From: Hyphomicrobium sp.
GTDB taxonomy: Bacteria > Pseudomonadota > Alphaproteobacteria > Rhizobiales > Hyphomicrobiaceae
Length of the DNA: 64,000 nucleotides
Direction of reading: 5' to 3'
Assembly (NCBI GenBank): GCA_002928515.1
Contig: PERI01000006.1
Coordinates: 85,670 to 149,669, forward strand
How positions within the stretch are numbered: position 1 is the first letter of the stretch; each line of letters begins with the position of its first letter. This document shows positions 53,166-64,000 of the stretch, in pieces. The translations under genes and the position numbers were made by a program. The notes below the pieces were generated by a model. That model made no database searches. It was not told the origin of the DNA and saw only the letters and a list, made by a program, of their open reading frames with translations.

Positions 53166-55067
53166 TTATCCGCGCAAGCGCGAGCGGACAATGCGCGGGA
53201 ATTCATCGTCGCTTGGTTCGCCGCTGTTGGAATTGCCATAGCCAGTTTGTGGGCGCTGGTCTGGGATCATGTGGCGAGAATTGTCTGCGCTCCATCCATG
53301 CTCGCCACTTTGCGTTGGTGGGCTTTGTCCGTAGGGCGAACTTGGTAATTGCTGCTGCGGCGCTGTTGCACGGCCGTAAGCTGGCGTGCGTTGTTGTTGT
53401 TGGGTCGGCTGAGCGGAAAACCAAGCTTCAACGAGATCGAGTTCATCTGACGACAAACTGAGACCCTGACTGCGGCAGCGTGCAACTACGAAATTGCGGA
53501 AGCGGCTGGCGAACAAGTTGGCCGAAGCGCCTTGTTCGAACCATGGATCGCTTTCGCTGACCACTTCGAGAATGAACCGCAGATCGTCGCGCTTGAGATC
53601 GAGGCCGAATTCGCGCGCGCGTTGCGTGAGGTTTACAAGCGTTTGCGAGCCTTGCAATCCATTGGTGGAAATTTCCTGTGCCATAATGTCGAACAACACG
53701 CGATATTCCGCAGGTGCCAGCGCGGGTGCCTGACAAGCTTCATGTATGCGGGCAATGGATTGCTGAATCTGAGTTGCCTGATCTCCAGGCCGTTGCGCCG
53801 CTTGGTATCCAGGCGCTGCGACCTGAGCATTTCGCTGCGCATCCAAGCGCGGGTCACCATAGGGGCCCGGTTGTGGCGCTAGTGGTTGTTGAGGTGCTGG
53901 CATGCGTTGCTGCATAGGCGGTTCAACCATGCGTTGCTGTTGTTGTGGTGGTGCAGCGAGCGGTGCCATCGCGCGCGTCTCGGCGCCGTAGGGTCCTTGC
54001 GCTATCGGTGCAGCGAGCGGCGGCGCATAGGGATCTTGTTGATGTGAAAGTGCGGGCTGGTATGCGCGTTGTGGAGTGACATACGGCTCGCTCGAACGAG
54101 AGCGCATATCGTTTTGTGCAATCAGCGCTTGCTGTTGCACAGTGTTCTGCACCAGCAGACCCGTCGCGGTGATATGACGGTTCGCATCGAACACCGTGTA
54201 GGGAGGTGTATCGCTGAGGTGGATGTCGTCTGGCAGATCCGACAGGAGTAAATCGCGGAATGTGCCAAAACCACCCCAGTTCGTTCCCACGGTCTTGTCA
54301 CGTCCGACAATGCGGACCGCCCGATCCGCCAATGTTTCGAGCGGAACGGCTTGAGGCGCTGTTCGCACGAATTGAACGACCTCGGCGATAGTCGCGCGGC
54401 GGGCCGCTTCCACATCGACGGCTGCTATGGGCATTGTTTGTGCGGTGAGTTCACGCTGAGCGGTGTCGGCTGTAATTGCCTTACCGCTGAGCAGCAATGC
54501 CATCAGGCTCGATTCGCGAATTTCGCCGTCGCTGATTGCCGTGTAGGGCTGAGCGGTATGGTCATTTGCATACACGACTGTGTGGCGTGCGTGCGCTCGA
54601 AGTCGATGCAGAACAGGTGTGAAGTCGGCGTCGCCGGATAAGATGATAAATTCGTCGAAGTACGTATCGTGGCTGATGATGTCACGAATATCCATCACGA
54701 TGCGGATGTCGGCGGAGTTTTTGAGCTGTGCCGTTAACGGTGGGCAGTCGATAACTTCGAACCCGGAACGCAAGAAATGGTGACGAATGAACGGAAACGA
54801 GTTCATGTCGGTCGAATTGTCATGGGTATTGCGGCGTGGAACGGGGTTTCCATAACAGCGGTTCATGGCGATGCGGCGCTCTTTAGGCGCGATAAACGTC
54901 GCCGTAGGCGTGATGAGTTCGCCCGACACGATGCCTTGCAACCAAACCTGGCTATCCTTTGCAAAGCGCTTTGCTGCTTCTTCGTTTTTGCGCTTCAGCG
55001 ACAAGTAGATGTTGTCGTAATCGACAAATACCGTCGTCAGGATCGGTCCATCGGACTCGCGTTTCAT
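53166..55067 (-). CDS. NYN-domain (LabA-like) protein with LOTUS domains
   Basis: 633 residues. The N-terminal NYN/PIN-like nuclease domain has VFVDYDNIYLSLKR, SADIRIVMDIRDIIS and FIILSGDADFTPVLHRLRAH, with the conserved aspartates. An OST-HTH/LOTUS domain (IAEVVQFVRTAPQAVPLETL ... TNWGGFGTFRDLLLSDLP) follows. A long glutamine/proline-rich linker and a second C-terminal helical domain (about residues 465-580) come next. LOTUS plus NYN proteins bind and perhaps cleave RNA. ATG 55067 is preferred to a TTG three codons upstream and follows GGGGG. Similar proteins are frequent in Hyphomicrobiales, but the target is unknown. Confidence 0.82.
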   Translation of the reverse strand: MKRESDGPILTTVFVDYDNIYLSLKRKNEEAAKRFAKDSQVWLQGIVSGELITPTATFIAPKERRIAMNRCYGNPVPRRNTHDNSTDMNSFPFIRHHFLRSGFEVIDCPPLTAQLKNSADIRIVMDIRDIISHDTYFDEFIILSGDADFTPVLHRLRAHARHTVVYANDHTAQPYTAISDGEIRESSLMALLLSGKAITADTAQRELTAQTMPIAAVDVEAARRATIAEVVQFVRTAPQAVPLETLADRAVRIVGRDKTVGTNWGGFGTFRDLLLSDLPDDIHLSDTPPYTVFDANRHITATGLLVQNTVQQQALIAQNDMRSRSSEPYVTPQRAYQPALSHQQDPYAPPLAAPIAQGPYGAETRAMAPLAAPPQQQQRMVEPPMQQRMPAPQQPLAPQPGPYGDPRLDAQRNAQVAAPGYQAAQRPGDQATQIQQSIARIHEACQAPALAPAEYRVLFDIMAQEISTNGLQGSQTLVNLTQRAREFGLDLKRDDLRFILEVVSESDPWFEQGASANLFASRFRNFVVARCRSQGLSLSSDELDLVEAWFSAQPTQQQQRTPAYGRATAPQQQLPSSPYGQSPPTQSGEHGWSADNSRHMIPDQRPQTGYGNSNSGEPSDDEFPRIVRSRLRG

Positions 55068-55279
55068 TGACGGCAACCCCCGTTATGCAGAACTCTGATT
55101 CGCGCCCACTGTCCACGAGTCGGAAACTGACAGCAAGACACACCCCGAGATAGACTGGGGTGCGCGGCATTTATCTCGTGGATTGAATGTGTTCGGGTAC
55201 ACCTTGACCTGATGAAGACAGTGGACGGCTTGGGGATAACCGTCGATTGCAGGCAAGCTGTTGCTCGCAAGTCGCGGGG

Positions 55280-56884: not shown

Positions 56885-58408
56885 ATGCGCTGTTCATTGA
56901 TTATCCGAATTTGCGGGCTGCTGGCGATGAGTGTTCTCGCCGGATGCGCGGTTTACCCGACGCCGCTCAGCGATCAGGAACTGGCCATTGCCGCCGAAAT
57001 CAATACTGGCTCCGTGGTTGCAAATCAGGAACCGGTTGCTGGCGCTGTGACGCTGTACGAAGCCATGGCGCGGGCTTTGAAATACAACCTTGACCACCGC
57101 GTTGAGGAAGCAGAAGCCGCCGTTCGGATGGCTGAGCTCGACCTGTCCCACTACAGCCTTCTGCCGTCCGTCGTTGCCAACAGCGGCTATGCAGGCCGCA
57201 ACAAGTTCAACGCGTCGTCGAGTTTCAATCTTGACGAAGACAGGCCGAATTTCGCGGCATCGACCAGCCAAGATAAAGAAATTCGTTCGACCGATATCGG
57301 TATCAGCTGGAATATCTTGGACTTTGGTTTGTCATACGTGCGCGCTCGGCAGGATGCCGACAAAGTGCTGGTGCAAGATGAAATGCGCCGCAAAGTCATG
57401 CATCGCGTCGTTGAAGATGTGCGCACGGCCTATTGGCGCGCTGTCAGCGCTGAGCGATTGATGGGTCGGTTGGCAACACTGGAAGTCGAGACCAAGAGGG
57501 CGCTGCAAGAAACGCGTACTCTTTACAAGGAGCGCGAGACATCGCCCATCACGGCTTTGACCTACGAGCGCGAACTCGTCGAAATCAAACAGAAGATTGG
57601 CGAGATCCAGAGAGATTTGAATACGGCCAAGGCGCAGCTTGCGGCTTTGATGAATCTCAAGCCCGGAACAGATTTTCGGCTTGTGTACGACGGTCGTAAG
57701 GAAGGCTCGCTCGAACTCAGAGCGTCGATGGACGATATGATCGCGACGGCCGTTTACAACCGACCGGAATTGCGTGAGGTCGCCTATCGCAAGCGCATCA
57801 ATGTGCATGAAGCTGACGCGGCTTTGCTGGAATTGCTGCCGGGCATGCAGCTTTACGCCGGTTCGAACTACGACAGTAATAGTTTCTTATTGCATAGCGA
57901 TTGGACGAATTGGGGTGCCAAGGCGAGCTGGAATTTGCTGAAGGTGTTTTCCTATCGTGCGCGACGTGATGTGATAGCCCTGCAAGATGACATGCTTAAT
58001 CAGCGTTCGCTTGCTGTGACGATGGCAGTCATGACCCAAGTTCATGTTTCGCGCATTCGCTTTCTCCATGCGCGTAAAGAGCTAAGAACTGCCGCTGAAT
58101 ATCAGGACGTTCAGCGCCGTCTCTTAGATCAGATCCAGGCGGAAGCAGCCGCCGATCGCATCAGCAACCAGACGCTAATCCGCGAAGAAATGAACACGCT
58201 TGTTGCAGAGGCTAAATTCGACATCGCCTATGCGCAAATGCAGAACGCTTACGCCAACTTGTTCTCGTCGATGGGTCTTGATCCTTACGCGTGGGAAATC
58301 GATCGCCAGCAAAGCGTGAAGGATATGACCGCTTCGTTAAAGCAACTTTGGTTTGAGCGTGGCGATCTCAATGCGGGATGGTCGAAGCGACTTGCCTCGG
58401 CGCAATAG
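56885..58408 (+). CDS. TolC-family outer membrane efflux lipoprotein
   Basis: 507 residues. The signal sequence MRCSLIIRICGLLAMSVLAG ends at a lipobox cysteine (LAGC), so it is lipid-anchored. Two TolC/OEP repeats follow: long helices (LYEAMARALKYNLDHRVEEA, VRTAYWRAVSAERLMGRLAT) and barrel strands (GISWNILDFGLSYVRAR, WTNWGAKASWNLLKV). It would form the outer-membrane duct for the adaptor and inner-membrane proteins encoded just downstream. Start ATG 56885. Confidence 0.85.
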   Translation: MRCSLIIRICGLLAMSVLAGCAVYPTPLSDQELAIAAEINTGSVVANQEPVAGAVTLYEAMARALKYNLDHRVEEAEAAVRMAELDLSHYSLLPSVVANSGYAGRNKFNASSSFNLDEDRPNFAASTSQDKEIRSTDIGISWNILDFGLSYVRARQDADKVLVQDEMRRKVMHRVVEDVRTAYWRAVSAERLMGRLATLEVETKRALQETRTLYKERETSPITALTYERELVEIKQKIGEIQRDLNTAKAQLAALMNLKPGTDFRLVYDGRKEGSLELRASMDDMIATAVYNRPELREVAYRKRINVHEADAALLELLPGMQLYAGSNYDSNSFLLHSDWTNWGAKASWNLLKVFSYRARRDVIALQDDMLNQRSLAVTMAVMTQVHVSRIRFLHARKELRTAAEYQDVQRRLLDQIQAEAAADRISNQTLIREEMNTLVAEAKFDIAYAQMQNAYANLFSSMGLDPYAWEIDRQQSVKDMTASLKQLWFERGDLNAGWSKRLASAQ

Positions 58409-58561
58409 GCCGAAATAGGAAATTTTCTTGGGCTATAGTTGGCTTTCAAATCAGATTTTATCGGCTTAAGGCGCTTTCGGTTAACGTGACCGAAAGACGA
58501 ATGCGCCAATACTGCGCTCGAAGGTTTACCGATCTTAAAGTTTGGTCGGTGGGGAGTGCGT

Positions 58562-59326
58562 ATGGAACGAGTTGTTAAGACGTGCGTGGCGGGTTTGGCG
58601 CTTGCCGTATCGGCTGGTGCTGGTGGTCGGGCTGCCGAGATGCAGCGACCTTTAGAAGCCAGTATCCCTGTACGTGGGGTCATTCGGGCCATCGAACAAG
58701 CGCAATTGTCTACCGATCTCATGGCGCGTGTCGCTAGTATCGGGTTTCGCACCGGCGAGCGCTTTAAAAAAGGTGATCTGCTGATTTCTTTCGAATGCGA
58801 ACGCTATCGCGCAGAGGCTCAATCCGCAGAAGCTGTTTGGCGTGAGATGAACCTCACTCTCGACAGCAACCAGCAGCTAGAAAAATTTCGCGCCGTTGGA
58901 CGCCATGATGTGGAAATTTCCAAGGCACGCGTAGCAAAAGCTGAGGCCGAAGCGCGTTCGCTCAAGAGCCGCGTTTCGCAATGTGAAATTATTGCACCAT
59001 ACGACGGTCGCGTGTCTGAGCTTTCAATCAATGTGTACGAGCAGCCGCAAGCCAACAAACCGTTTCTCTCTATCGTCGGAGACGGCAAACTTGAAATAGA
59101 GTTGATCGTGCCGTCGAATTGGTTGAGTTGGCTGCATGCCGGCGCAGCTTTCGATCTCAAAATTGATGAGACCGATAAAGACTATGGCGGTCGCATCGAT
59201 CGCATCGGAGCTGCCGTTGATGCGGTCAGCCAGATGGTGAAAGTCATCGCCGTGTTCGATACGCCACCCAGCGATGTATTGCCGGGCATGAGCGGTACGG
59301 CACACTTCTCGCAACCTAACGGGTAA
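58562..59326 (+). CDS. HlyD-like periplasmic adaptor
   Basis: 254 residues with a cleavable signal (GLALAVSAGAGGRAAE). A lipoyl/barrel-sandwich half (GVIRAIEQAQLSTDLMARVA, GERFKKGDLLISFECERYRA) leads into a helical hairpin and the second lipoyl half (CEIIAPYDGRVSELSINVYE), then a beta-barrel (LIVPSNWLSWLHAGAAF). This is the standard membrane-fusion-protein fold without a membrane anchor. ATG 58562 has GGGGAG upstream. The gap of 153 bases to the TolC-like gene contains a CTTTCGGT/ACCGAAAG hairpin (58474-58496) without T-run. Confidence 0.83.
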   Translation: MERVVKTCVAGLALAVSAGAGGRAAEMQRPLEASIPVRGVIRAIEQAQLSTDLMARVASIGFRTGERFKKGDLLISFECERYRAEAQSAEAVWREMNLTLDSNQQLEKFRAVGRHDVEISKARVAKAEAEARSLKSRVSQCEIIAPYDGRVSELSINVYEQPQANKPFLSIVGDGKLEIELIVPSNWLSWLHAGAAFDLKIDETDKDYGGRIDRIGAAVDAVSQMVKVIAVFDTPPSDVLPGMSGTAHFSQPNG

Positions 59327-59331
59327 TCGAC

Positions 59332-60771
59332 ATGGCTGAAACGTCTCGTCGTCCCGAAAGCAAATCCGCGTCGGTTGTCAAACAACAAGCGACTGTTGTT
59401 GGCAAAGTGCCAATGGCTGGCGGTGTTAAAGTTGCCGATGGCCAAGCAGCGCTCCTTGCTTTGCTGCGTGTTGAAGCCGACATGCGCGAAGTTAGCAATG
59501 AACGCGATCTTATGTTGTTGGTTGCGAATGAGATGCGCAAGTTAACCCGCGCGCGTCAGATCTTTATTCTCAAGCCTGGATTTTCCACGAAAATGGAAGT
59601 GCAGGCGATATCGAGCTTGCCCTCAGTCGATCGCAATGCGCCATTGGTTCAGTACATTGAGAATGTCGTGGCTCGCTCTGGTGCTTCGCGTTCGCTGAAA
59701 GATCCTGGTCCGCTCGACACGTCTGGGCCGGATTCCACAGGTGCTGCTGCTGCTTATCCTTTCCGCTCCTTAATGTGGCTGCCATTGCGTCAAGGCAAGC
59801 GTATTGCCATGGGCGGAATTGTGCTTGCCCGCGAAGACCAATGGACGGATGCTGATTTGATCGTTGCCACGCGCTTGTCGCGGGCTTTTGCACATGCATG
59901 GTCGGCGCTAGGCGGAAAGCCGCGCCAGATCATACGCGACTTTATAGTGCCCAAACGCTGGCATGCTCTCGCGGTTGTTGCTGTTTTGTCGGCGTTAGTT
60001 TTCGTCAAAGTTCCATTGTCGGCTCTGGCACCCATGGAAATTGTACCGCGCGAGCCTTTTGTGGTTGCTGCGCCGATCGATGGCGTCATCAAAGACGTCG
60101 TCGTTGAGCCAAACCAAGCTGTCTCTAAAGGCGATTTGCTTGTTAAGTTGACTGATACAAGTTTGAGAAACCGAGTTGAGGTAGCCGATCGCGAAGTGCA
60201 AGTGGCCGAGGCGCGATTAAAGCAAGTCAATCAGATTGCATTCAATGACGATCGTGGGCTGCATCAGATTGCGATTGCTCGCACTGAATTGGCTCTCAAA
60301 GTGGCGGAGCGAGATTTTGCGCGCGACTTGTTGGCAAAATCAGAAATACGCGCTGAGAGATCTGGCCTAGCGATTTACGCTGATAAGCGGACACTTGTTG
60401 GCAAACCCGTGGCGGTGGGTGAACGCATTCTTGAGGTCGCGGAAGCTGACAAGCTTGAGGCGCGCATTGAGCTGCCAATATCCGATACCAGTGTTCTTTC
60501 GACGGGTGCTGTCGTTAAGCTCTACCTCGACAGTGAGCCGCTGAAGCCTTGGCATGCTACGGTCAAACGTTCCGACTATAAGGCGCACACGGGCGACAAC
60601 AATGTGCTGTCATTGCGCGTGATCGCGACGTTGCTGAGTGATGGTCAGATGCGCAAGCTTCCGCGCCTTGGCGTTCGGGGTACGGCGCAAATATCTGGCG
60701 ACCCGGTTCCGCTTGGATTGTATCTATTCCGTCGTCCATTTATCGCGCTTCGCCAAAGCATAGGTTTCTAA
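59332..60771 (+). CDS. GAF-like/HlyD fusion membrane adaptor
   Basis: 479 residues. The N-terminal 190 residues form a cytoplasmic GAF-like domain (VANEMRKLTRARQIFILKPG, YPFRSLMWLPLRQGKRIAMG, VLAREDQWTDADLIVATRLS). A membrane helix (HALAVVAVLSALVFVKVPLS, near residue 215) follows. The rest is a HlyD-type adaptor: REPFVVAAPIDGVIKDVVVE, a coiled coil, and ADKLEARIELPISDTSVLST. A sensory GAF-like domain on an adaptor is unusual and could gate export. It is five bases after the previous gene. Confidence 0.8.
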   Translation: MAETSRRPESKSASVVKQQATVVGKVPMAGGVKVADGQAALLALLRVEADMREVSNERDLMLLVANEMRKLTRARQIFILKPGFSTKMEVQAISSLPSVDRNAPLVQYIENVVARSGASRSLKDPGPLDTSGPDSTGAAAAYPFRSLMWLPLRQGKRIAMGGIVLAREDQWTDADLIVATRLSRAFAHAWSALGGKPRQIIRDFIVPKRWHALAVVAVLSALVFVKVPLSALAPMEIVPREPFVVAAPIDGVIKDVVVEPNQAVSKGDLLVKLTDTSLRNRVEVADREVQVAEARLKQVNQIAFNDDRGLHQIAIARTELALKVAERDFARDLLAKSEIRAERSGLAIYADKRTLVGKPVAVGERILEVAEADKLEARIELPISDTSVLSTGAVVKLYLDSEPLKPWHATVKRSDYKAHTGDNNVLSLRVIATLLSDGQMRKLPRLGVRGTAQISGDPVPLGLYLFRRPFIALRQSIGF

Positions 60772-60772
60772 T

Positions 60773-62905
60773 ATGAGCGCGCAAGAGACCCCCGTCGTTC
60801 CCGAACTGCGTCAGGATTTGCGCCTTGAGCGTGGCGCGCCTGCGGCTGATGGAACGAGTAGTTGGGTCGTGGTCGATTCTATTCAGCATCGTTATTTGAA
60901 AATCGGTGAAACGGCATACCAACTGCTTTCGATATGGAAGCCAGGTGCTTCATATTCGGAACTTCAGAAAGCAGTCTATGAATCGTTTGGCCACGCGATA
61001 ACGCCAGAAGATATCTCCGAATTTGTAAGATTTCTTTCAGCCAATAATTTAACTGTCGATCCCGCCTCTGGAAGCTGGCGGCACTATGCCGATGTGCTGG
61101 ATCGGGGTCGGCATGGCTGGTTGATGTGGTTGGTGCACAACTACTTGTTCATTCGCGTTCCATTGTTCCGCCCCGAAAGTTTTCTGCAGCGTTGGTTGCC
61201 TGCCGTTTCACCTCTCGGCTCGCGGGCGTTTTTGTTGTTTATCCTAGGGCTAGGATTGACCGGGCTTTATTTAGTTTCCCGGCAATGGGACTCATTTACA
61301 GCAACGTTCCAGCATTTCTTTTCGTTGGAAGGTGCGCTGACCTATGGCGTAGCGCTGATTATTATCAAAAGCGCGCACGAACTTGGCCATGCATTCACGG
61401 CGGCTCGGTTTGGGTGTCGTGTGCCAAGTATGGGTGTCTGCTTTATCGTACTGTTTCCGGTGCTCTATACCGACGTGAGCGATGCGTGGCGCCTGCGATC
61501 TCGTCACCAAAGATTGCGGATTGGCGGCGCGGGCATTGCTGTCGAATTAGCGCTTGCGTGTGTTGCAACTTTTCTGTGGGCGTTTTTGCCTGAAGGCGTT
61601 CTGAAAAGTTTGGCGTTTTCGATTGCGACTGTTGGCTGGTTGATGAGCCTTATCATCAACCTCAATCCGTTGATGCGGTTTGATGGCTATTACTTGTTTG
61701 GTGATGCGCTGGGCATCGACAATCTTCAGGCGCGTGCATTTGCCTTCGGTCGTTGGCGTCTCCGAGAGATATTGTTTGATGTAAGAGATCCAGCTCCTGA
61801 GCAATTTTCGCGCGCTATGGAGCGCACGCTGACCATTTATGCTTGGCTGACGTGGATATATCGCGTCATTCTATTCACGGGCATTGCGTTGATCGTCTAT
61901 CACATGGCGTTCAAGCTGCTTGGCGTTGCACTGTTTCTGATTGAAATCATCTATTTTGTTATCCGGCCGATTTATTTCGAAGTTCGTGATTGGTGGGCAC
62001 GTGGCGAACGCTTAATGACGACGACCCGTAGTCGTTTTACGGTTTCGCTCGCTGCGGTTATGTTTCTTTGGTTTGTAACGCCGTGGTCAACACGCGTAAC
62101 TGTTCCAGCAATGCTGGAAGCTGCGCAAATTGCTCATGTGTATTCGCAGCGCGCGGGTTTCGTCAAAGACGTCAAAGTGCAGATCGGTGGACACTTGCGA
62201 GCTGGAGATACCATTGCAGTTCTCCAGTCTAGCGAACTTGATCGCCAGATCGTAGAGGTCGAAGGCAAGCAAGCATTAACTCGCCTACGATTGGCACGGC
62301 GTTTGGCGGATGATGAGGAACGGATTGAAAGTTTGGTTTTAGAACAAGAGTTGCGCGCTCTGAACTCGCAATTGGAAGGGCTGGAGCGCGAGAAGTCTGA
62401 ATATGTTATTAAAGCACCACAGGACGGCTTGTTGGTTGAGCTCAGTTCGGAGTTGCATCCAGGGCGGGCCGTTCCAAGCGGTTTAAAAGTTGCTTTAGTG
62501 CGAAGTGGTTCTGATCTGGTTGCGCGTGGGTATGTTTCTGGAAGTGATGTGCGGCGGCTCGGGTCCAATGCCATGGGCTTTTTTGTACCAGAGGCGGTTG
62601 GGCAGCAGATTGTTCCCTTGCGATTAGATCGTATTGGTCAGAATGGATCTCATGATTTGGATATCATCGAACTTGCCTCAATTTATGGTGGTTCTGTTGC
62701 TGTGCATGCGGTATCTGGCCCCGATGGACACAAAGAATTGGTTCCAGTTGAAGCGCAGTATTTAGCAACGATGACGGCTGATCGCAGGGCGTTTCCCATC
62801 GTCGCCATTCGGGGTGTTGCTCATCTATCTGGTGAGCGGCGTAGCTTTGCCGGTCGGGCATTCCAGGCTGTCGCTTCGGTACTGATCCGTGAAAGTGGTA
62901 TTTAG
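60773..62905 (+). CDS. Site-2 protease (M50)/HlyD fusion export protein
   Basis: 710 residues. The N-terminal 100 residues resemble a PqqD-type domain (YLKIGETAYQLLSIWKPGAS). Then a multi-pass membrane part has the zinc protease motif AHELGHAFTAARFG (HExxH, about residue 201) and the second ligand motif NLNPLMRFDGYYLFGDALG (about residue 300). The C-terminal part is a HlyD-like lipoyl/coiled-coil adaptor (IAHVYSQRAGFVKDVKVQIG, then a helical hairpin, YVIKAPQDGLLVELSSELHP). It begins one base after the previous stop. The protein would combine membrane channel or protease and adaptor in one chain and takes the place of an ABC exporter. Confidence 0.85.
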   Translation: MSAQETPVVPELRQDLRLERGAPAADGTSSWVVVDSIQHRYLKIGETAYQLLSIWKPGASYSELQKAVYESFGHAITPEDISEFVRFLSANNLTVDPASGSWRHYADVLDRGRHGWLMWLVHNYLFIRVPLFRPESFLQRWLPAVSPLGSRAFLLFILGLGLTGLYLVSRQWDSFTATFQHFFSLEGALTYGVALIIIKSAHELGHAFTAARFGCRVPSMGVCFIVLFPVLYTDVSDAWRLRSRHQRLRIGGAGIAVELALACVATFLWAFLPEGVLKSLAFSIATVGWLMSLIINLNPLMRFDGYYLFGDALGIDNLQARAFAFGRWRLREILFDVRDPAPEQFSRAMERTLTIYAWLTWIYRVILFTGIALIVYHMAFKLLGVALFLIEIIYFVIRPIYFEVRDWWARGERLMTTTRSRFTVSLAAVMFLWFVTPWSTRVTVPAMLEAAQIAHVYSQRAGFVKDVKVQIGGHLRAGDTIAVLQSSELDRQIVEVEGKQALTRLRLARRLADDEERIESLVLEQELRALNSQLEGLEREKSEYVIKAPQDGLLVELSSELHPGRAVPSGLKVALVRSGSDLVARGYVSGSDVRRLGSNAMGFFVPEAVGQQIVPLRLDRIGQNGSHDLDIIELASIYGGSVAVHAVSGPDGHKELVPVEAQYLATMTADRRAFPIVAIRGVAHLSGERRSFAGRAFQAVASVLIRESGI

Positions 62906-62924
62906 ACCATAATTTGCGCTCTCA

Positions 62925-63006
62925 TTTGAATACGTCATTCGTTATTCAAATTCCTAATTTAAATGCTTTGTAAATTCCAGATTGATAATTCGTTTCAATT
63001 TAAATG
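62925..63006. promoter_or_regulatory. AT-rich repeat region before the large surface protein gene
   Basis: The intergenic 198 bases are strongly AT-rich. A perfect 8-base inverted repeat TTTGAATA (62925-62932) / TATTCAAA (62943-62950) is followed by two direct copies of AATTTAAATG (62956-62965 and 62997-63006). Probably binding sites or a curved-DNA promoter region for the giant gene. Confidence 0.4.
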
Positions 63007-63103
63007 TTATTGCTTATTAAGCATTTGACGCTTGTTTATTTTTAGAAATGTCCAGTTATTCCGCTGTCATCAATAAACGGAAAACCCTTTTCCTGTTTAA
63101 CTC

Positions 63104-64000
63104 ATGCAATCTCCGAAGTTTGGCTTGACCAAGCTTTGGCTATGCTTGGGATTTTTATATATGAACAGGTTGATGCGCACGTGGGCGTTTCCAAAACGGA
63201 AAAACGCAAAGCCCGCAGAGGTGCTACCAGAGGCATATTCTGCACGCCTGTCCTATACAGCGTTGGAGTCGCGTATCGCATTTGACGGTGCAGCGGTGGC
63301 TGAGGCTGCGGCTGTTGCGGCGGCTGAGCCAGCAGGTTCTGAAAATAGTGCGGCTCCAGCTCATAGTGAATATCAAGCAACCGACGCAAAGGCGGCTCCG
63401 CATGGATCGGCAGAAGTTGCCGAGCCGAGTGATGCGCACAATATCGCTGCGGAAAGTTCTGCAGAACAAGACGCCGATGACCTTTGGGAAGCCGCCGCCA
63501 TGGGGCCGCAGCCAACCGAAGACCAAACGACCATTGTCTTTGTTGACAAGAACGTCGAGAATTTTGAACAGATTATTGCAGGCATCGATCCGTCTTTTGA
63601 AATCGTTCTGATTGATGGCAATTCGAGCGGCCTGGAACAAATCGCTGCAAATTTGGAGGGGCGCACGGATGTTGCCTCTATCCATATCGTGTCCCATGGC
63701 GAGGCTGGTCGCCTATTTCTAGGTACAGATGTGCTGGATCTGGGGACAATCACTGGTTCGCATGCAGAAACACTTGCGGCCATTGGTGGCGCACTTGCAG
63801 CCGATGGCGATATTCTTCTTTATGGATGCGATGTCGCCGACGGCGTGACCGGCTTAGAATTTATGGAAGCCCTATCGGACGTCACAGGTGCTGATATCGC
63901 AGCATCCGTTGATGATACCGGCGATCCGACACGCGGCGGCAACTGGACGCTTGAGCGATCTGTTGGCTCGATTGAGACGTCGTCCATTTATATCGACAGC
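63104..64000 (+). CDS. Start of a large DUF4347 (LEPR-XLL-like) surface protein, truncated by window end
   Basis: 299 codons are visible with no stop. A basic N-terminal segment is followed by the phrase YTALESRIAFDGAAVAEAAA, which matches the LEPR-XLL-type motif (LE-S/P-R-x-hydrophobic-FDGA) of giant secreted proteins. An alanine/glutamate-rich linker precedes a DUF4347 domain: IVLIDGNSSGLEQIAANLEG, IHIVSHGEAGRLFLGTDVLD, GDILLYGCDVADGVTGLEFM, DIAASVDDTGDPTRGGNWTL. Proteins of this class usually continue for thousands of residues with cadherin-, VCBS- or RTX-like repeats. The start could also be ATG 63161 or 63173; no ribosome site decides. The preceding TolC/HlyD/M50 genes are the likely exporter. 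Confidence 0.78.
   Translation, partial: MQSPKFGLTKLWLCLGFLYMNRLMRTWAFPKRKNAKPAEVLPEAYSARLSYTALESRIAFDGAAVAEAAAVAAAEPAGSENSAAPAHSEYQATDAKAAPHGSAEVAEPSDAHNIAAESSAEQDADDLWEAAAMGPQPTEDQTTIVFVDKNVENFEQIIAGIDPSFEIVLIDGNSSGLEQIAANLEGRTDVASIHIVSHGEAGRLFLGTDVLDLGTITGSHAETLAAIGGALAADGDILLYGCDVADGVTGLEFMEALSDVTGADIAASVDDTGDPTRGGNWTLERSVGSIETSSIYIDS

Follow-up and report, generated by a model that had tools for sequence, protein, structure and literature searches.

The window, i.e. the whole stretch of 64,000 nucleotides of Hyphomicrobium sp. that was analysed, is located on contig C6 of a 2.9 Mb genome (G000); the contig extends 4.5 kb beyond the window end. The last part of the window harbors a cassette of four genes, encoding a TolC-like duct, a soluble adaptor, a GAF/HlyD membrane adaptor and a fusion of an M50 intramembrane protease with a HlyD adaptor (M50-HlyD), which are followed by the gene of a giant repeat protein with a DUF4347 domain. 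All five genes are encoded on the plus strand, and a check of the open reading frames with Pfam and NCBIfam profiles placed each of them where an earlier prediction from the nucleotide sequence (the original prediction) had located it. The intergenic gaps within the cassette amount to 147, 5 and 1 bases; the predicted first gap of 153 bases results when the soluble adaptor is taken to start at the internal ATG 58562 and not at 58556. The following features were assigned:

56885..58408, plus strand: TolC-like outer-membrane duct, predicted lipoprotein (PF02321 OEP, 4.5e-35; lipobox LAGC by direct reading)
58556..59326 (ATG alternative 58562), plus strand: soluble periplasmic adaptor of the RND_mfp type (TIGR01730, 1.1e-32, above the NCBIfam cut-off; PF13437, 9.1e-16)
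59332..60771, plus strand: membrane adaptor with a GAF-like part, one transmembrane segment (residues 212-230) and a HlyD part (PF13437 HlyD_3, 1.2e-10)
60773..62905, plus strand: fusion of an RRE-like domain, an M50 intramembrane protease and a HlyD adaptor, core of the cassette (PF02163, 1.2e-9; PF13437, 1.3e-5; NF041824, 1.1e-47)
60860..61057, plus strand: putative PqqD/RRE-like N-terminal domain of the fusion, residues ~30-95 (BLASTP to residues 63-126 of the relative L223; NF041824 match from residue 26)
61376..61390, plus strand: HELGH zinc-binding motif (H202, E203, H206; H, E and H invariant in 48/48 and in 22/22 aligned proteins)
61658..61687, plus strand: NLNPLMRFDG, second M50 motif (N296, P299, D304, G305; invariant in 48/48)
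62081..62641, plus strand: HlyD/RND_mfp-like periplasmic adaptor part of the fusion (TIGR01730 over residues 437-621; PF13437 over residues 545-623)
63104..64000 (ATG alternative 63164), plus strand: N-terminal 299 codons of the giant repeat protein (Big_9, Cadherin_4 and Cadherin_5 repeats)
63263..63286, plus strand: leader motif LESRIAFD (LExRxxxD; L, E, R and D invariant in 32 giants)
63533..63985, plus strand: DUF4347 domain with a conserved His-Gly and an invariant Cys (PF14252, 4.6e-50)

Classical type I secretion relies on an ATP-binding cassette (ABC) ATPase together with HlyD and TolC proteins. The original prediction had interpreted the cassette as a dedicated export machine without such an ATPase, and most of its gene assignments were borne out by the profiles. 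The duct was recovered as a predicted lipoprotein with a hydrophobic N-terminus (residues 5-23), the soluble HlyD-like adaptor as an RND_mfp protein, and the protein with HELGH and NPxxxxDG as an M50-HlyD fusion; PF13437 matched three of the cassette proteins. In the GAF-like/HlyD adaptor the HlyD part was recognised, whereas the GAF match was weak (E 0.039, below cut-off); a relative from locus L211 gave a GAF match of 2.4e-10. The GAF-like part is presumably cytosolic. The motif ALESRIAFDGA, predicted for the giant, begins at 63260, and the DUF4347 domain behind it reached 170 bits at a gathering score of 24.6 for PF14252, so that it belongs to this family. The frame of the giant remains open to the very end of contig C6 and comprises at least 1,788 codons, with the C-terminus lying beyond the contig. 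The genome contains a single M50-HlyD gene and a single DUF4347 protein as well as six ABC_membrane proteins, and the closest M50 relatives of the window protein among the matches listed come from Hyphomicrobium metagenome bins (60% identity). As predicted, no ABC gene occurs in the cassette of the window, and with a profile of seven ABC exporters none was detected between the cassette genes in the available parts of 80 related loci.

These loci were the best of at least 591 obtained when an alignment of 22 M50-HlyD proteins was used to scan reference genomes; many of them are incomplete at contig ends, and close relatives inflate some of the following counts. Where at least 4.3 kb were available upstream of the M50 gene (63 loci), a GAF/HlyD gene adjoins it in 60 and a soluble adaptor is present in 59, while a TolC gene lies within 49 of these loci and directly upstream in 45. 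Sequence of at least 6.5 kb to either side was available for 43 loci; 42 of them contain a repeat-rich giant open reading frame of at least 986 codons that belongs to one cluster (exception L116), and the expectation that M50-HlyD genes mostly occur together with giants thus held. Frames of this cluster are located upstream (33) or downstream (25) of the cassette on the same strand, upstream in divergent orientation (12) or downstream on the opposite strand (1); the linkage of the giant is therefore conserved, its position is not. The same order of genes is seen in other classes and in another phylum, which is far beyond chance, and machine and leader co-occur in Pseudomonadota and Nitrospirota. 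Furthermore, 78 plasmid records matched; in seven of nine that were inspected the giant adjoins the cassette, the two exceptions being Phyllobacterium sp. 628 and Magnetospirillum. Plasmid cassettes with a neighbouring giant include those of Azospirillum, Variovorax, Kosakonia, Burkholderia, Escherichia coli and Cupriavidus (an unannotated record). Complete E. coli genomes seldom carry the cassette (24 of 5,426), and 21 of its 25 sites in this species are on plasmids. A pattern scan of viral contigs with a single M50-HlyD protein revealed no relative.

In a quick tree of the M50 proteins, in which L210, L212, L216, L218 and L225 form long branches, the window belongs to the lineage that is referred to as type A in the following. 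A sister group of gammaproteobacterial M50-HlyD proteins, comprising 12 rows, is referred to as type B; its SH-aLRT value of 94 is just below the mark for strong support. Some placements in this tree suggest horizontal transfer: a Nitrosospira bin falls inside Nitrospira, Pelagibacter stands beside Oceanospirillaceae, and a Desulfovibrio bin groups with Pectobacterium. The bins may be contaminated.

Other genes were also observed next to cassettes. Genes of the tail-collar type adjoin the cassette in a Pseudomonas locus (L112, 12985-13581), in L031 (17131-19238) and in L032 (460-1074); those of L031 and L032 are annotated as tail fiber protein, and the cluster of the L112 frame spans five loci. 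They are possibly extra substrates or surface partners. In Variovorax (L030, 17273-25903), the type II secretion-like genes gspG, gspK, gspD, gspE and gspF follow directly behind the M50 gene on the same strand. In L024 and L027 (G254) the M50-HlyD gene is interrupted by in-frame stops, and the frame of a motif giant is located nearby.

The feature that connects the giants with the cassette most sharply is the motif LExRxxxD, which sits near the frame start of cassette-linked DUF4347 giants. Among the best 80 loci DUF4347 was first detected in 34 and the motif in 38, and all 34 loci with the domain possess the motif; the remaining loci mostly end before the N-terminus of the giant. A motif profile of 22 positions (E ≤ 0.01), to which seven alphaproteobacterial genomes supplied rows, was applied to 289 alphaproteobacterial genomes, 17 with and 272 without M50-HlyD. 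It matched 13 of the 17 M50-positive genomes, three of which (G026, G136, G217) represent one genus, and none of the 272 M50-negative genomes (p 2e-19). When the seven genomes that supplied rows were left out, the ratio was still 6/10 versus 0/272 (p 3e-10). Of the M50-positive genomes missed by the profile (G277, G270, G093, G127), G277 and G270 show the leader pattern if a regular expression is used, in G270 on the contig of locus L095. Ten genomes were chosen because of their cassettes and gave nine convincing motif matches, two of them in genomes that are sources of profile rows. Five of the motif giants matched are encoded at a distance from the cassette of the same genome; G298 has three of these, and G292 and G294 have one each. 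It is therefore very likely that the machine serves motif-bearing giants.

The position of the motif is also informative. The giants start with MTTIKNRRLRPRAHRFALESRQLFDGA in E. coli and MALEPRFMFDAA in Azospirillum, and the inferred starts are MSNKLIQALEPRLMLDGA in Pelagibacter and MKLVLEPRYLFDGS in G277. In some giants just 2 to 8 residues precede LExR, and the motif is so near the start in these four proteins that no space remains for a classical Sec signal. On average, the up to 25 residues ahead of the motif are basic (K+R 0.205, D+E 0.070 in 50 frames, the true starts of which are not fixed), and a mildly hydrophobic stretch comes after this basic N-terminus. Such a composition would also suit an unusual Sec signal, by which the giant would reach the periplasm via SecA and SecYEG, the cassette handling only the passage of the outer membrane or the anchoring; the SecA-like ATPase of type B loci described below would agree with this as well. 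This explanation is improbable, since E, R and D of the motif are invariant, since the few residues ahead of LExR in some giants speak against it, and since neither the membrane-embedded M50 core nor the RRE-like domain would then be needed. With respect to the RTX repeats of type I substrates, GGxGxD is absent from 49 of the 59 giant frames of at least 700 codons, many of which are incomplete. A weak common segment was noticed at the C-terminus of giants (e.g. L071, L072, L097, L113), in which [FL]xxQ[LIV] is followed over ~15-20 residues by a leucine-rich end; this is perhaps an anchor or retention element.

The original prediction had regarded LEPR-XLL/DUF4347 proteins as the substrates, with the N-terminal LEPR-XLL-like motif as a possible export or cleavage signal. 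This is partly supported: of the two features, the LExR motif follows the machine more closely than the domain. In the 289 alphaproteobacterial genomes DUF4347 exceeded the cut-off in 26 and was found together with M50-HlyD in 13 (p 1.7e-12), which corresponds to 13/17 M50-positive and 13/272 M50-negative genomes. In eight of these 13 M50-negative genomes the sequence ahead of the domain was readable in the best copy, and the motif was present in none of the eight; likewise, the motif profile matched in none of the 13. DUF4347 without the leader thus exists where the machine was not found. Conversely, a profile from our own DUF4347 alignment detected the domain in 19 of 25 distinct motif frames; it is absent from six, namely those of G040, Pectobacterium (L072), Halomonas (L069), G394 and two in Micavibrio (L095). 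The frames of L072 and L069 are cassette-linked giants. In most cases, though not in all, the leader is thus accompanied by DUF4347. As the element that is recognised, the domain was ranked second to the motif, which separates genomes with and without the machine more sharply and occurs in giants that lack the domain.

The domain could have another function. In an alignment of 32 DUF4347 sequences C102 is invariant, and H58 of a His-Gly pair (H58-G59) is conserved in at least 90%, a pattern which, we assume, recalls caspase-like proteases. DUF4347 might thus be a self-cleaving domain that cuts after the arginine of LExR, which is invariant, and the M50 core would merely be a dock or channel. 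The presence of the domain in most of the motif frames fits this idea. We consider it unlikely: six motif frames lack the domain, copies in the M50-positive genomes of L057, L118 and L122 do not possess the histidine, and M50-negative genomes have the domain in the absence of the motif. A PDB sequence search identified a DUF4347 chain (9qpe, 3.7e-6). According to the parts of the literature available, PA0256, a putative toxin of the type VI secretion system, contains DUF4347 too.

The M50 protein may read the leader with its N-terminus. In the window protein, Pfam gave no match for the first 95 residues. NF041824 (daptide_HExxH), a model of daptide leader peptidases, was matched by all 48 aligned type A M50 proteins, and NF058609 (EpeP/YydH/LiaK) by 41 of them; the match of the window protein to NF041824 begins at residue 26 and amounts to 163 bits, below the curated cut-off of 300. 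In addition, the PqqD stretch of the type B protein L223 (residues 63-126) aligns by BLASTP with residues ~30-95 of the window protein. By homology, the N-terminus therefore probably resembles the PqqD/RRE-like leader-binding domain of daptide leader peptidases, which would provide the leader motif with a plausible reader. A PDB sequence search with the M50 alignment yielded adaptor relatives and, weakly, relatives of site-2 proteases; with the N-terminal domain alone it gave nothing useful.

The zinc-protease residues are invariant in all 48 aligned proteins, which argues that catalysis probably matters, and HExxH is present in 18/18 further M50-HlyD proteins. Site-2 proteases often act in signalling, and together with the GAF domain of the neighbouring adaptor this could indicate that the fusion is a signalling protease for regulated intramembrane proteolysis, with the giant being only a co-regulated neighbour. 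This is very improbable, as the protease is fused to HlyD and most loci combine it with adaptors and TolC; moreover, the leader also marks giants distant from the cassette, and the best-matching protease models are leader peptidases.

Regarding the energy source, the original prediction had assumed that the M50 protein fills the place of the ATPase. The cassette is indeed free of ABC genes; the assumed replacement may be wrong, as the sister lineage possesses a SecA-like ATPase. In type B, a compact ATPase of this kind (open frames of ~650-720 aa) is encoded directly behind the M50 gene in eight loci, and in L225 as a weak case. The DEAD motor domain of SecA (PF07517) was matched with 6.5e-68 to 4.6e-96 in three of these proteins, and the Walker A motif GEGKT is invariant in 8/8. 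A profile of them separates from housekeeping SecA in 184 gammaproteobacterial genomes, with nine genomes above 850 bits and the next match at 611 bits; these nine are among the 25 M50-positive genomes, versus none of the 159 M50-negative ones (p 4e-9). Because eight of the nine genomes, found beside M50 genes, supplied the profile, the telling part of this link is the 0/159 and the ninth genome, G368, in which the SecA-like gene and the M50 gene lie on different contigs. SecA2 models matched two of the type B proteins, both far below the cut-off. The genome of the window has no second SecA over the cut-off; one SecA was detected above it and one stretch below.

The profile of seven ABC proteins was also applied to 20 other loci. 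In L210 the ATPase adjoining the M50 gene is of the soluble ABC-F type and not an exporter, and the hits in L214, L218 and L227 are located 7-8 kb away; an ABC exporter as part of the cassette was rejected. Three DUF4347 giants of type B carry LEPRIMMSADP, LEPRLLLSADL and LERRLLYSADP in place of FD[GA]A forms, so that machine lineage and leader variant seem to go together, albeit in small numbers.

Starting from the conserved gene order, the co-occurrence, the invariant residues and the homologies described, we infer a leader-dependent export machine with an RRE-intramembrane protease-HlyD core, which probably exports and displays the giants, taking them through both membranes in a single passage. 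The giant with its cadherin/Ig repeats would be made without a classical Sec signal and would begin with a short, often basic stretch followed by the leader LExRxxxD. This leader would be bound by the cytosolic PqqD/RRE-like domain of the M50-HlyD fusion, a step for which we have good confidence. The intramembrane zinc protease core would then clip the leader or engage it in the membrane; that it cuts is only slightly favoured, given that DUF4347 accompanies so many of the motif giants. The HlyD part of the fusion, the GAF/HlyD adaptor and the soluble adaptor would assemble on the TolC-like duct, and the chain would exit by this route. Energy would probably be provided by SecA and not by an ABC pump. 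In type B this role of the dedicated compact SecA-like ATPase is rather likely; in type A, housekeeping SecA or another unlinked motor would be needed, and SecA can be proposed only tentatively. It is conceivable, though doubtful at present, that the cassette represents a separate secretion class of diderms, in which the RRE receptor-protease-HlyD protein is the gate in the inner membrane and an ATPase of the SecA family pushes the unfolded giant to the TolC exit in one step.

Several observations weigh against this proposal. The M50-HlyD scan scored the three best candidates per genome, and some of the M50-negative genomes may thus be misses. In gammaproteobacteria (184 genomes) the link between motif and machine is weaker, with matches at E 0.01 in 6/25 M50-positive and 2/159 M50-negative genomes, i.e. 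none in 19 of the 25 genomes that have the machine. One of the two M50-negative genomes, G404, encodes a convincing motif giant of 1,110 codons with DUF4347; the other match is a frame of 126 codons and probably due to chance. At E up to 0.1 two further M50-negative genomes appear (G351, G401), which lack the strict pattern. The Desulfovibrio bin with a cassette showed no convincing motif (E 0.05). On the Magnetospirillum plasmid pMSR-1 (L036, 9514-17100) a full cassette stands beside a protein of 492 residues with ELWxxDGT and without the leader motif, and in Phyllobacterium sp. 628 only the GAF/HlyD and M50 genes were seen within 32 kb, with no motif giant.

Other points concern the individual steps. 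Of the six type B proteins that were scanned, L223 alone exceeds the Pfam cut-off for PqqD (PF05402; 7.3e-7), and direct PqqD matches in type A are weak (2/48, best E 0.11). According to the available passages on epipeptides, some product is left after deletion of epeP, which encodes an M50 protease, and this points to other proteases and exporters (PMC10885120). Among the 25 largest neighbour clusters of the 80 loci, type A shows no recurrent linked ATPase; the top clusters are adaptors and M50 proteins, giants and TolC, and the remainder are apparent antisense frames or genes of few loci. The type A motor is therefore a guess.

A rival explanation is a type I system in disguise, in which an ABC protein encoded elsewhere, e.g. 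of the PrtD type, drives the giant and the M50 fusion merely acts as a processing adaptor. Among the six ABC_membrane proteins of the host genome, one is indeed an unlinked PrtD-type secretion ABC (contig C3); the others fit best to MsbA-like and glucan-exporter models. Parts such as TolC and HlyD typify type I systems, in Phyllobacterium sp. 628 a type I HlyD gene and an ABC gene are located 3-5 kb away, and an ABC ATPase gene occurs somewhere in the stretch of 9 of the 80 loci. Moreover, the passages available on a Vibrio LEPR-XLL giant describe C-terminal RTX and serralysin-type domains, type I-like features (PMC10868602), for which a type I route would fit. On the whole this explanation is nevertheless unlikely, as the profile of seven exporters revealed no ABC gene between the cassette genes in the available parts of the 80 loci, and only two loci have one within 3 kb of the M50 gene, on the opposite strand. 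The conserved signal is N-terminal, GGxGxD is mostly missing, and the sister lineage brings a SecA-like motor instead.

Apart from the cassette, the window encodes on the minus strand (53166-55076) an NYN-domain protein, a long part of which is rich in Gln and Pro.

Giant repeat proteins occur widely, and the question is by which route they arrive at the cell surface when no ABC exporter is linked to them. With one short leader that predicts substrates and a machine that co-occurs with it, this question becomes directly testable. If the proposal is true, it would tie the leader-recognition fold of ribosomally synthesized and post-translationally modified peptides (RiPPs), site-2 proteases and perhaps SecA-type motors to secretion across the envelope; RiPP leader logic would have been re-used for the export of some of the largest bacterial proteins, and a purpose of LEPR-XLL-type start motifs would be suggested. 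The shared LExRxxxD leader, the PqqD/RRE-like N-terminus of the M50 protein and the SecA-like ATPase of type B are new points of this study. In the titles, beginnings of abstracts and passages of the open full-text literature, with subscription papers and preprints largely outside, no such cassette was described.

Among known systems, type I secretion (HlyB-HlyD-TolC; Lap-type adhesins) shares the TolC duct, HlyD-like adaptors, a giant repetitive adhesin-like substrate and the expected one-step route. The cassette differs by the absence of an ABC ATPase, by three adaptor-type proteins, by the conserved N-terminal signal and by substrates mostly without GGxGxD. Likewise, the giant Ca-dependent adhesin BapP of Pseudoalteromonas tunicata is encoded next to a putative TolC-dependent exporter (PMC12153261); unlike the cassette, its locus has ABC transporter genes alongside, as far as the available passages describe it.

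LEPR-XLL proteins are related by their start motif, as the three type B giants show LEPR/LERR...SADP/SADL forms. The window motif is an FDGA variant and gave no match to NF012209 (LEPR-8K), which we take to be the LEPR-XLL model, in its own genome (E 0.001). In the 289 alphaproteobacterial genomes this model had one match, in an M50-positive genome, and was rejected as too narrow a stand-in for the leader motif. The passages available on LEPR-XLL proteins describe no exporter. With the accessory Sec system (SecA2), type B shares a second SecA-like ATPase, here encoded beside the cassette; it differs in that this gene is linked to M50-HlyD and adaptors and that the protein is far below the SecA2 cut-offs.

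EpeP/YydH/LiaK (NF058609) is part of a system for small peptides in Bacillus subtilis, which has no outer-membrane duct; in the available passages EpeP is thought to carry out both cleavage and export (PMC10885120), which makes it the nearest precedent seen for export by an M50 protein only. In daptides, according to the parts of the report available, an RRE fused to an intramembrane site-2 protease removes the leader, and the precursors carry the motif ELExMEAP (PMC10036551), compared with LExRxxxD in the giants. The daptide leader peptidase MpaP (NF041824) thus combines an N-terminal RRE with an M50 core, as the cassette protein would by homology. The latter possesses an additional HlyD part, and its substrates comprise hundreds to thousands of residues instead of a small peptide; in the same parts of the literature, daptide clusters carry ABC transporters, unlike the cassette. 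The cassette was therefore filed neither as a type I system, because no ABC gene is linked, nor as a daptide protease, because the match is below the cut-off, and it may work partly like both.

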